A DNA stretch of 37,923 nucleotides from Candidatus Omnitrophota bacterium (GTDB lineage Bacteria > Omnitrophota > Gorgyraeia > Zapsychrales > Zapsychraceae): NCBI GenBank assembly GCA_015232535.1, contig JADFZM010000008.1, forward strand, positions 1 through 37,923, written 5' to 3'. Positions 21,770 to 26,547 of the stretch are shown here, one piece after another. A program made the position numbers and the translations under genes. The notes under the pieces are model-generated. The model was not told where the DNA came from, did no database searches, and was given only the letters and a program-made list of their open reading frames with translations. Each line of letters begins with the position of its first letter. The stretch's first letter is position 1.

Positions 21770-23659
21770 TCACCGATTGTTCCCGTCACCGGGATAAGCC
21801 TGCATCACTCCATTCTTACGGTTGTGCACGATTATCGGCTCTCCGTTAAGCAAAACCACATAATTGTGATGCGGATCAACTTCAAAGTTAAAGATATCGT
21901 ATTTCTCCCCGGATTTACCGGTAACTTTTTCTATTTTCTCAATATTAATATCTTCCTGGGAAGTGTTGGTCAAGGTATCTCCGCTTTTCATTTTTCCGAT
22001 TTTCACCCATTCTCCTTTACTCAATACAGGGTGAATCGCCGTAACTTTAAGAGTACCGTTAACTATCAAATATTCCGCCTCGGGAGAGTGCTCAAGTATT
22101 TTATCCACCTTGCCTATTGCCATTTCTTTATTTTCTTCATCGTAAGACATGACTAAATCTCCGGCCTTTACTTCCTGAATAAGTTTTGTTTTCCCGTCGG
22201 CCATTAAAACCATGGTGTCTGCTAGAAAACATCCTCCGCCGCAGCTATAAACACAATTACCGTTCTTTGATTTCATGTTAGGGTTAGGGCAACAGGCATC
22301 GCTTAAGCCATCGCAACTTTTTCCGTTATCCGGCCCGGCATAGTAAAGCCCTCCGGTTGTTTCACTGCATTCGAATCTTCTTTGAAGCGAGGAATATACC
22401 TGCCTAGGGTAAACAAAATCAGGGTTACTGCCGTTATCAGCAATACTCATTATACCCCACCATTCTTCGTTAAAATAATTGTCGGCGGATGGCGGATACC
22501 AATCAGGAACACCGTCTCTGGGACAATCCGTATCAATAGGCCCAAAACCCCCGAAATCATGATCATCATTATATTCCCAATTACGGGTCTTCCACCATTC
22601 ATCAGAATACTCCATTACACTGGCGCCGATACAAACATTATTGTTGCGAACCACTTCATCCCAAAGCCTTCCTACCCAGGCCGCCTGGGTCGATTGATCT
22701 TCATAACCATTTTGGGGATTTTGCGGATCAACGGTAAAATAAGCATCCGTACCGAATTCCGAAATCCATAAGGGCTTTGATGTCTTAGAAGCAAAATCAT
22801 TAAAAACCTGGCCAAAAGAAATTCCATAATAGATATTAGTTCCCCAAATATCCAAATCCGGCATCTGGCTGTCGGTTGACCCATAAGCAGGCACACCGAT
22901 AGAAGTTATATCCCCGTTCACAACAGCGACAGGATGATAATCATAGCAATTATTCGGGTAGGTCGGGCATTCGGCCTTATGAGCCTCAAAAGCTAATTGA
23001 TTAACCAGCGAATACCAAGCCATTAAAAAATCCTTCCGTCCATTATACTCTGTTGGTATAGATAGATTATTCTCATTTCCTAGTGCCCAAAATAGAATTG
23101 CATTATGATTTTTAAAAGTATTGACATAAGCTTTAAAGTCTTCGATTATAGCCTGCCGGGAAGAGACATAGTTAGGGCTTTGATTATTTAAGTAATCCGG
23201 GATGTTCCAAACGATATGATTTACATTACACCAGGGATATTCGGCTTGAATCCAGAATCCAGCGATGACTTTTATCGGATTGACACCGTTATTCTCAGCG
23301 GCGTTTAGAAATGCTGTTGTGAGTTTTGTCGTAAAGCGTCCGCCAACTTCTGTATCGTCCCCTTTCCAAATACGTACAGTGTTTGATTGCAAGTTACGAA
23401 GGTGGGCTAAATCGCGATTATATATCAACGGATCCCCAAAAATGTTCGGGCCCCAGTCATCCGGCTGACGGCCTATAGGATACGGTGAATAACCGGTGCT
23501 TCTTATGATATAGTTCTCATATTGACCGTTTCCGTCGAAATCAACCAAAAGGCTTCTTCCTTCCACCTTCACTTTGGGGCTGGCCTCAGAGTTAATCGGC
23601 AAAAGGAAGCAGAAAAAAAATAATAAAATAAAAAGGGGTATATTTCTTAAATTAAACAT
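21770..23659 (-). CDS. Secreted clan GH-A glycosidase-like protein with Cys-rich linker and C-terminal Hint domain
   Basis: Signal peptide; WALGNENN and WISEFGTD (candidate acid/base and nucleophile Glu); Hint region from Cys477 (CFLADTMVLMADGKTK...VTAIHPVL...VHN). Confidence 0.88.
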   Translation of the reverse strand: MFNLRNIPLFILLFFFCFLLPINSEASPKVKVEGRSLLVDFDGNGQYENYIIRSTGYSPYPIGRQPDDWGPNIFGDPLIYNRDLAHLRNLQSNTVRIWKGDDTEVGGRFTTKLTTAFLNAAENNGVNPIKVIAGFWIQAEYPWCNVNHIVWNIPDYLNNQSPNYVSSRQAIIEDFKAYVNTFKNHNAILFWALGNENNLSIPTEYNGRKDFLMAWYSLVNQLAFEAHKAECPTYPNNCYDYHPVAVVNGDITSIGVPAYGSTDSQMPDLDIWGTNIYYGISFGQVFNDFASKTSKPLWISEFGTDAYFTVDPQNPQNGYEDQSTQAAWVGRLWDEVVRNNNVCIGASVMEYSDEWWKTRNWEYNDDHDFGGFGPIDTDCPRDGVPDWYPPSADNYFNEEWWGIMSIADNGSNPDFVYPRQVYSSLQRRFECSETTGGLYYAGPDNGKSCDGLSDACCPNPNMKSKNGNCVYSCGGGCFLADTMVLMADGKTKLIQEVKAGDLVMSYDEENKEMAIGKVDKILEHSPEAEYLIVNGTLKVTAIHPVLSKGEWVKIGKMKSGDTLTNTSQEDINIEKIEKVTGKSGEKYDIFNFEVDPHHNYVVLLNGEPIIVHNRKNGVMQAYPGDGNNR

Positions 23660-23716: not shown

Positions 23717-25267
23717 TTATATCTTTTGCCACGACACAACAATAAACAAATTAGAGCTCGCGCCGACCATTCCCGGCGGCATAGAATTAACCGTTTGGGG
23801 CACCTGAAAGATTGCGGGAACGTTTGTGCCCATGTCAAAATAATTGGAAACTATGGTACCAACAATATTTGTTTGGCGGGCAACAACTACTCTGTCCGCG
23901 GCATAAAAAAGGCCCATAACGTTACGCTGCGCCCCTGTTGAAAGATTTATTCTTCTAGGTGTCATAAAACCAACTATATTATTCGGGAAAGAGGCGTTCC
24001 CGGGAGTGATAAGATCAACATCCATTGTAATGTCTCCGGTGACTAAAAGAGTCCCCGTCCCGGTATAAGTCACGGTCTTATCGATCCCTTGAGAGTTTAA
24101 TAAAAGGGCATTATTTCCGTCGACATAAACCCTTCCGGATATCGTCATATTCCCCTTTCCGTCCATCCGGATGCTTCCGTTGGCGTTTGAATAATTAAAA
24201 CTGCTTTTAGCGGTAAGGTTGCTAAGTTCGTTTGTTAGGACTAAAGCATGATCTTGAAAATATTGCTGAAAGGTCTTTGTAGGGTCGATCGGGTCAGGGT
24301 CGGTTAAAAGCGGGAAACGAATTCCTTCTCCCAGATCCCAGGCGGTGCTAGTCCCGTTATCGGAATGAGCGTTTGCCGCGCCCTGATTCCCTCCCCAATT
24401 GTCCGCTCCGCCATCAACGATGTAGATCCCATCAACTTTCTCTTTATAGGCATTTCCTGTAGCATTAACCTCCCCGACTGTAGCCGAGCCGCTTAAACCG
24501 ACCATGCCTCTTTTAATCCTTAGATTCGCATGTAAAGTCTCGACAGTCTCCCCTCCTACAACAACTGTATCCAATGCCGGCACTTTCGCCTTTAAATTAG
24601 GCAATCCACCGCTTCCATCCGGTATAGAGCGGTAATTGTTTCCGACCAACTCAGCTGTCCCTCCCATGTTTACCGCATAATCCCCGTCAGCTAAACCAGT
24701 CCCCAGAACTACTACTGAGCCTCTTATATCAACATTGCCGTTTATCATAGAGCCAGATGCACCCGCACCGGCGAAAATAGCCGTCCCCCAAGGAGATACC
24801 TGGACCATTTTAGCATATACCAAAATAGTATGGGATTGTCCGTTTATCGTACCGGTTGATCTGAGCCAAATATCCCTTGTGCCGGAATCATTTTTTAACT
24901 GAACGCTATAAGACCCGCCGTTAAAAGCAGTATCGGAATAAGTTATTTGATAAAAATTGTTATAATCCGGGCCGATCGCATAACCGTTAATATCGCTGTC
25001 CGCCCAGCTAGGAGTGCTGTCTATAACAAAATCCCTACGAAGGTCATAAAGCCCTCTTTCAATACCCGCCTCAGCGATATGAAAAGCTACAGTATTTATG
25101 CGCTCGCGCTCGGCCACTTTAGTTTCGTTGGTTAAAAGCACCATAAACGCCGCTCCTATACCAAGAAGCACCATGATCACCATATAAGAAATTAAAAGCA
25201 GGCTGCCGCGTTTATCTTTTGTTATTTTTTGCATAAATCTTTTTATTAGAATTGTCATACGCACCAC
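23717..25267 (-). CDS. PilX-like pilus-assembly/pseudopilin-associated protein
   Basis: KRGSLLLISYMVIMVLLGIGAAFMVLLTNETKVAERERINTVAFHIAEAGIERGLYDLR followed by a long Gly/Asn-rich beta region. Confidence 0.8.
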   Translation of the reverse strand: MVRMTILIKRFMQKITKDKRGSLLLISYMVIMVLLGIGAAFMVLLTNETKVAERERINTVAFHIAEAGIERGLYDLRRDFVIDSTPSWADSDINGYAIGPDYNNFYQITYSDTAFNGGSYSVQLKNDSGTRDIWLRSTGTINGQSHTILVYAKMVQVSPWGTAIFAGAGASGSMINGNVDIRGSVVVLGTGLADGDYAVNMGGTAELVGNNYRSIPDGSGGLPNLKAKVPALDTVVVGGETVETLHANLRIKRGMVGLSGSATVGEVNATGNAYKEKVDGIYIVDGGADNWGGNQGAANAHSDNGTSTAWDLGEGIRFPLLTDPDPIDPTKTFQQYFQDHALVLTNELSNLTAKSSFNYSNANGSIRMDGKGNMTISGRVYVDGNNALLLNSQGIDKTVTYTGTGTLLVTGDITMDVDLITPGNASFPNNIVGFMTPRRINLSTGAQRNVMGLFYAADRVVVARQTNIVGTIVSNYFDMGTNVPAIFQVPQTVNSMPPGMVGASSNLFIVVSWQKI

Positions 25268-25268
25268 C

Positions 25269-25811
25269 TCAATTCCTTAATTGTATCTTCTGGTTTAATT
25301 GCGCGGTAACAGTCCTTCCATTGGTTGTGTCTTTGCTGGCATTTATGGTGATCTCTAAAAGATGCGGAGAGGAAGCTTGCCTTCGAAATTGCAGGCCTGA
25401 TATATAGTTGGCAACAACTGTTGTTTTGGTCGGGGTGATCATCAAAAGCTGCTCTCCGTCGGTTCCTCCAAGCGAGATTTCGGTAGCATCATTGCTCCAT
25501 ACAATAGCCCCTCCTACGACTCCGGTCGGGACCTTAAAGGTGATTTGGTCATAAGTGTTGCCGTCAGCGGGCACATCAAAAATAGCGGCGTTACCGGTCT
25601 CCCGTAGTTCATAACGCATCCTTTCTATCGATTTACGTATCTCCTGCTGTAATTCTATTTTTGTTTTATTTGCCTGCCATGATTGATCACCGACGGCAGC
25701 GGAGGTATAAAGAGCGGAACAAAGAAGGCCAAAAATTATCATCGTGACCATTGTTTCAACATAACTGAACCCGCAATCTCCAAAACAAAGTATTTTAATA
25801 AATCTTTTCAT
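25269..25811 (-). CDS. PilW-like prepilin
   Basis: CGFSYVETMVTMIIFGLLCSALYT prepilin cleavage/methylation motif. Confidence 0.85.
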   Translation of the reverse strand: MKRFIKILCFGDCGFSYVETMVTMIIFGLLCSALYTSAAVGDQSWQANKTKIELQQEIRKSIERMRYELRETGNAAIFDVPADGNTYDQITFKVPTGVVGGAIVWSNDATEISLGGTDGEQLLMITPTKTTVVANYISGLQFRRQASSPHLLEITINASKDTTNGRTVTAQLNQKIQLRN

Positions 25812-25820
25812 GTTTCTCCT

Positions 25821-26282
25821 CTAATCATAACGCCGGGCGATCATGCCTTTTACCTGAACAATCGAGGTGATTTTCCCGTCACTATTCAAATCCTCCCCTA
25901 CTTCCAAAATACCGTTTAAATTCGTGTCTTCGCCTACGATCCGGCCGTATTTATCCCTCCAGCAGGCAACAATCTCTACCTCTAAAAGGTCCGGGTTGCT
26001 TGAATCGACATAAATAGCCCCTTTTCCGGTTAGACCGGATAAGTCGAATTTATTTCCCGGGGAAGTTCCGTATGTGGAGGCAATATTGTTATAAGTAGCG
26101 TTTCTAATTTGCTCTAATTTGGTTTGAACTTCTCCCATAGCCACGCTTTTATTCTCGGCCATTTTGGCTAAGACAGAGGTATAAATATATAGCCTTAACA
26201 TCCCGACAATAACTACCGCCAAGATACCGGATACTATCATAAGTTCGACAAGCGTAAAACCATTTTGCATTTTTTTCATCAT
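25821..26282 (-). CDS. Prepilin-type N-terminal cleavage/methylation protein (PilV-like)
   Basis: QNGFTLVELMIVSGILAVVIVG; second Met (26279) is better placed relative to AGGAG. Confidence 0.92.
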   Translation of the reverse strand: MMKKMQNGFTLVELMIVSGILAVVIVGMLRLYIYTSVLAKMAENKSVAMGEVQTKLEQIRNATYNNIASTYGTSPGNKFDLSGLTGKGAIYVDSSNPDLLEVEIVACWRDKYGRIVGEDTNLNGILEVGEDLNSDGKITSIVQVKGMIARRYD

Positions 26283-26298
26283 TTTCTCCTAAAAAAAA

Positions 26299-26322
26299 TG
26301 CCTATCCGAAATAGGATAGGCA
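26299..26322 (-). terminator. Riboswitch expression-platform intrinsic terminator
   Basis: Minus strand TGCCTATCC-TATTTC-GGATAGGCA followed by TTTTTTTT (26291-26298), abutting the RBS. Confidence 0.93.
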
Positions 26323-26348
26323 CAGTATTCTTATATAGTTTACTGCTT

Positions 26349-26468
26349 GATTCGGCGGCCAGGCTATCCTATTTATTAAGGACCCTTTAGCTTTGCGTCC
26401 CCACCTTACGATGCACGCCAAACTGCTCGGCGTGTCCGCAGATGTTACTTGCGGAGGTTTGCCATTTT
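26349..26468 (-). ncRNA. Cyclic-di-GMP-I (GEMM) riboswitch aptamer
   Basis: Minus strand TGGCAAACC...GGTGGGGACGCAAAGCTAAAGGGTCC...AGGATAGCC...GCCGA matches GEMM-I conserved blocks in order. Confidence 0.93.
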
Positions 26469-26486
26469 CGTCAAAGCATATTTTGT

Positions 26487-26514
26487 CTATTACAAGCATA
26501 AAACATTTTCGCAA
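26487..26514 (-). promoter_or_regulatory. Putative promoter of the riboswitch-led operon
   Basis: Minus strand TTGCGA-16 bp-TAATAG, just upstream of the aptamer. Confidence 0.5.
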
Positions 26515-26547
26515 TTAATGCCAACGCTTAAAAGATATAAAATCCCC

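Follow-up and report, generated by a model that had tools for sequence, protein, structure and literature searches.

This locus raises the question of whether a c-di-GMP-I riboswitch governs the pilin genes that follow it, and of how its aptamer might accommodate a 42-nt element lodged in one of its helices. In the window, which is the whole stretch of 37,923 nucleotides analyzed here, the region upstream of these genes probably contains a transcriptional c-di-GMP OFF riboswitch that precedes a minor-pilin operon and carries a member of a 42-nt family inserted in P2 as a four-way junction. Such a riboswitch would provide a clear and testable case of c-di-GMP control over pilin genes, in a phylum for which nearly all knowledge comes from metagenomes.

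The pilin operon and its upstream aptamer

The preliminary description had placed a pseudopilin operon downstream of the riboswitch, and the genes found there agree with this assignment.

25821–26282, minus strand: gene 1, a prepilin/pseudopilin-like protein of 153 aa (PF07963, TIGR02532, GFTLVE motif)
25269–25811, minus strand: gene 2, a minor-pilin-like protein of 180 aa with a GFSYVE motif (weak ComGE-type matches)
23717–25267, minus strand: gene 3, a protein of 516 aa with a PilX-like N terminus (PF14341, below cut-off)

The first gene is of the prepilin type, with an N_methyl match (PF07963) over the cut-off. Homologues of gene 3 were found in 51 of the 55 genomes of the order, many of them as strong full-length matches, and several are preceded by a c-di-GMP-I aptamer in the corresponding position, indicating that the riboswitch belongs to the pilin operon. 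Behind the operon, positions 21770–23659 (minus strand) encode a secreted protein that resembles glycoside hydrolases and ends in a Hint domain at its C terminus.

The upstream region contains the following elements.

26495–26524, minus strand: promoter-like pair TTGGCA-18-TATGCT, a weak consensus match only, no more than in shuffles
26477–26471 with 26350–26345, minus strand: P1, by inspection of the sequence
26351–26473, minus strand: c-di-GMP-I aptamer (RF01051, 41.2 bits against a cut-off of 35)
26456–26463, minus strand: GGCAAACC, with G20, G21, C22 and the basal P2 strand C26-C27, by hand alignment to Vc2
26402–26413, minus strand: distal P2 hairpin CAUC-GUAA-GGUG with a GNRA tetraloop, by sequence and covariation
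26395–26401, minus strand: GGGACGC, the basal P2 3' strand, including G45 and C46, by sequence, RF01051 alignment and covariation
26358–26391, minus strand: P3 (GCUAAAGGGUCC ... GGAUAGCCUGGC), by sequence and RF01051 alignment

An Rfam covariance search, which had been proposed as a check on the riboswitch, matched RF01051 at 26473–26351 on the minus strand and exceeded the cut-off. The span originally given for the riboswitch (26291–26468) is slightly short, as the aptamer match begins at 26473 and P1 at about 26477. The score is modest, presumably because of the 42-nt insert. P2 is closed by a GNRA loop (CAUC-GUAA-GGUG plus CC/GG), its 5' strand being broken by the insert, and in the RF01051 alignment P3 is without the 11-nt tetraloop receptor typical of the c-di-GMP-I family, although it may contain a receptor of a different type. 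An RNA arising from the promoter-like pair would begin just upstream of P1. The source genome has 11 RF01051 matches and five GGDEF domains; across the genomes searched in the order, aptamer matches number 2–14 per genome.

c-di-GMP is the likely ligand, favored by the ligand-contact letters G20, A47 and C92, which were read from the RF01051 and RF03167 alignments with Vc2 numbering assigned by hand. The G20-like position had previously been read as G, and G indeed occupies position 20 in the alignment. Aptamers of the cGAMP type carry A20, whereas the window does not have the A expected of a GEMM-Ib 3',3'-cGAMP aptamer. A G20A mutant binds cGAMP (PMC6274999).

It is very improbable that the aptamer senses another ligand, whether 3',3'-cGAMP or the one recognized by the c-di-GMP-I-GGC variant (RF03167). 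The window resembles the latter in its P3 without the 11-nt receptor, RF03167 scores slightly better than RF01051 on the window (43.2 versus 41.2 bits), and several insert-free orthologues pass the RF03167 cut-off. However, the window itself stays below that cut-off (59 bits), has G rather than A at position 20, and shares with its orthologues an A at position 47, following GACGC, where the RF03167 consensus has G (the name GGC probably denotes positions 20, 47 and 92); the genome also encodes GGDEF cyclases. The aptamers L209, L212, L217, L218 and L214 exceed the RF03167 cut-off, and position 47 is A, not G, in those read (L209, L212, L217 and L218). Thus, the RF03167 model seems to draw in ordinary c-di-GMP-I riboswitches of the phylum. 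Matches to Qrr, PyrG and csRNA in the aptamer region lay far below cut-off and were dismissed.

Terminator and antiterminator

Between the aptamer and the first gene lie the elements of a putative expression platform.

26364–26374, minus strand: antiterminator strand AAAUAGGAUAG, overlapping the P3 3' strand
26309–26319, minus strand: CUAUCCUAUUU, the antiterminator partner, comprising the terminator 5' arm and loop
26291–26323, minus strand: intrinsic terminator with a 10-bp stem, a 6-nt loop and U8
26286–26290, minus strand: AGGAG ribosome-binding site directly behind the terminator, from the sequence

The preliminary description had claimed an 11-nt complementarity between an aptamer segment and a strong U8 terminator, and both parts of this claim are borne out. 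AAATAGGATAG (26374–26364, minus strand) is perfectly complementary over 11 nt to CTATCCTATTT (26319–26309), which forms the 5' arm and loop of the 10-bp hairpin GUGCCUAUCC-UAUUUC-GGAUAGGCAU; the hairpin is followed by U8 (26323–26291) and adjoins AGGAG, with the start codon at 26282. The match is the longest complement between aptamer and arm, and it is beyond chance, with 2 of 20,000 dinucleotide shuffles of the aptamer reaching 11 nt.

The proposed antiterminator pairing is also conserved. The same-genus orthologue L209 keeps both AAATAGGATAG and CTATCCTATTT exactly, with differences in the terminator linker, loop and tail. Pairing is retained with changed letters in the orthologue L240 (GCAAGGATAG/CTATTCCTTGC) and in L073, which belongs to another family and lies before a response-regulator-like gene (TAATGGGATAG/CTAATCCTATTA). 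For a swap test we took 46 distinct aptamers of the order with the P3 strand GGA[T/C]AGCC, 39 of which had a terminator 31–73 nt on. The 12-nt strand paired with its own terminator arm at a mean of -8.6 kcal/mol versus -7.2 kcal/mol with the arms of others, and 0 of 5000 permutations were as good (n = 39), a figure that overstates independence because some of the 39 rows are close relatives. This narrower test was made after a broad one, in which the entire P3 region paired no better with its own terminator arm than with swapped ones; the P3 segments of that test were too wide and some terminators had been mis-called.

Folding calculations indicated that, before the terminator 3' arm is made, the antiterminator is favored over the aptamer (-49.4 versus -41.2 kcal/mol; antiterminator probability 0.91), and that in the full-length RNA the terminator forms with a probability of 0.92. 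Since the terminator prevails at equilibrium even in the absence of ligand, the switch must act kinetically, deciding during transcription. The predicted mechanism resembles that of Cd1 from C. difficile. Cd1, the c-di-GMP-I riboswitch of the Clostridioides difficile flagellar operon, is a proven transcriptional OFF switch that decides during transcription; its terminator is made from two downstream strands, and its antiterminator, which is only transiently stable, joins an aptamer 3' strand to the terminator 5' strand (PMC9262584). In the window, the 5' arm of a separate terminator is likewise complementary to an aptamer strand, but switching would occur via the P3 3' strand, the genes targeted are pilin genes, and P2 contains two extra hairpins in a four-way junction. 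The pilM riboswitch of Geobacter metallireducens (GEMM-Ib, 3',3'-cGAMP) belongs to the same aptamer superfamily and also lies before pilus genes (PMC9262584). In contrast to the window, with its G20 and separate terminator, pilM is a cGAMP-specific ON switch whose terminator incorporates an aptamer strand.

Comparison across relatives gives good support to the OFF reading, and the predicted sign would arise as follows. Without ligand, the emerging terminator 5' arm would pair with the P3 3' strand, so that the aptamer would unfold, the terminator would be prevented and the operon would be read. With c-di-GMP bound, P3 would be held in the aptamer and the terminator 5' arm would be left free; the terminator could then form just before the ribosome-binding site, and transcription would stop. 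The riboswitch adds a member to a known class, and its OFF design is well supported.

The 42-nt insert in P2

The riboswitch reading of the preliminary description stands, but it had overlooked an insert in P2.

26414–26455, minus strand: 42-nt double-hairpin insert in the P2 5' strand (hairpin 1, 26455–26435; hairpin 2, 26434–26414)

The insert follows nucleotide 27, between GGCAAACC and CAUC-GUAA-GGUG-GGGACGC. A covariance model of the element (R1), built from 18 sequences of which that of the window is one, matched 26414–26456 with 49.4 bits (E 5.3e-9). The corresponding site in L209 is exactly empty: its junction reads GGCAAACC/CATCGTAAGGTGGGGACGCAAAGC, also given as GGCAAACC/CATCGTAAGG, with no duplicated bases and a clean 42-nt difference from the window. 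Given these near-identical empty and filled sites, the effect of the insert is directly testable.

Because the 3' strand of P2 is continuous and all four arms abut, the insert turns P2 into a predicted four-way junction in which the ligand site and the GNRA loop could stay in place. Across 17 cores bearing the insert, pairing in the four-way-junction structure amounts to 95%, and 18 of the 23 pairs are changed on both sides; sliding the pairing partners destroys this covariation signal. In distal P2 (helix 5), 4 of 4 pairs change on both sides. The insert illustrates a way in which the core of a riboswitch might accommodate 42 additional nucleotides, via a stacked four-way junction.

An aptamer interrupted in this way might instead have been disabled, binding no c-di-GMP and leaving the operon to an unregulated competition between antiterminator and terminator. 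Such a loss would be in keeping with the low Rfam score (41.2 bits versus 67.8 bits with RF03167 for an insert-free orthologue), with tRNA-gene copies that bear the same element and look broken beside intact ones, and with a source that is a metagenome assembly known here from sequence alone. We nevertheless consider it improbable, since P2 pairing is kept in the insert-bearing sequences (basal P2 100%, distal P2 98.5%, n = 17) despite two-sided changes, the window, L240 and L073 all retain the ligand-site letters and the antiterminator, and the same insert site recurs in c-di-GMP-I aptamers of many families. The four-way-junction aptamer would then function despite the insert.

When the GTDB r220 genomes were scanned, the two-hairpin form turned up in Omnitrophota, with one doubtful case in Elusimicrobia. 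A search of open papers returned none on an Omnitrophota riboswitch or a four-way-junction c-di-GMP-I aptamer, and we found no description in that literature of a P2 turned into a four-way junction by a dispersed repeat.

Two further loci combine the insert with other features. The riboswitch of the pilin-operon orthologue L312 (G016:C23:238877) combines the double hairpin in P2 with another, dissimilar hairpin inserted on the 3' strand, and L077 (G086:C57) has tandem c-di-GMP-I aptamers, the first with the P2 insert and the second without it.

A dispersed double-hairpin family

The R1 model matched elements in 19 of the 55 genomes of the order and in 71 of 144 genomes of the phylum, with up to 44 matches per genome and many elements matched on both strands. 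The source genome has two copies, both in P2 of c-di-GMP-I aptamers, the other being at C132:15523-15565. By our own reading of the flanks, 32 elements of the order comprise 10 in c-di-GMP-I aptamers (9 in P2 and 1, L336, in J1/2) and 10–11 in 5' tRNA-gene copies beside an intact tRNA; RNase P RNA accounts for 2, and another 9 lie elsewhere. When exactly 42 nt are removed from the tRNA copies of L340 and L188, the flanks rejoin to an intact tRNA with 0 mismatches.

The 5' tRNA-gene copies interrupted directly upstream of an intact tRNA include L169, L170, L174, L187, L188, L201 and L340. L307 and L326, from two genomes, have the element inside the bacterial RNase P RNA. Elsewhere in the phylum, the element abuts the edge of an FMN riboswitch aptamer (L184).

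These sites suggest, tentatively, that a 42-bp Omnitrophota element moves without target duplication and accumulates in folded RNA genes, among them c-di-GMP-I P2 after nucleotide 27, the D- and T-arms of tRNA copies and RNase P RNA. By converting a stem into a four-way junction it may spare the host fold, and gene-control RNAs may go on functioning while harboring a mobile element in the core; this reading is perhaps somewhat nearer to a conjecture than to a conclusion. The four-way-junction aptamer could alternatively be an old inherited subtype, spread by recombination between riboswitches rather than by repeated insertion of a mobile repeat. Most insert-bearing aptamers do have the insert after nucleotide 27 with the same core length (73 nt), and the flanks CATCGTAAGG are common to the window, L073 and L075 and nearly so in L240, as such descent would predict. 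We find this origin rather unlikely, however, because the same element is also found interrupting RNase P RNA and copies of tRNA genes, its position differs in some aptamers (J1/2 in L336), and it is patchy among pilin-operon orthologues, being present in the window, L240 and L312 and absent from L209, L212, L213 and L217. At the present locus, the insert may have been gained rather than lost.

Among bacterial repeats, the Rickettsia palindromic elements and REP/BIME are also dispersed and palindromic, some of them lying inside genes, and we liken them to the Omnitrophota family by description only. A link to the Y1/REP transposase was not borne out, as PF01797 counts do not follow element numbers: G078 has 31 element matches and no Y1, and G036 has no element and one Y1. 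No description of the 42-nt double-hairpin family was found in open papers. The nearest known things in form appear to be the double-hairpin elements of Allomyces and the hairpin-forming elements of sponge mitochondria, which are short and dispersed and consist of one or two adjacent hairpins (PMC2800124). Some mitochondrial hairpin elements lie in structural RNA genes, and those of Allomyces are reported without flanking duplications (PMC2800124). The likeness is one of form only, the Omnitrophota family being bacterial, 42 nt long and endowed with its own loop motif. If mobile, the element would be a bacterial counterpart of the double-hairpin elements of mitochondria, and one unusually associated with structured RNAs.

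Other enlarged c-di-GMP-I aptamers also occur in the order. In the source genome, L008 (G000:C128:502-592) and L011 (G000:C55:12696-12818) have different hairpins, which are inserted in P2 on its 3' side and immediately precede the GCAAAG strand. The long aptamers L042-L050 were considered as relatives of the window variant and rejected, their insertion being in P3 and not in P2. Together with L007 (G000:C11:3695-3840), they form a second long c-di-GMP-I variant of ~138–146 nt with a large conserved P3 extension (GGCCC...GGGCA), which is found in several genomes of the order, including the source genome.
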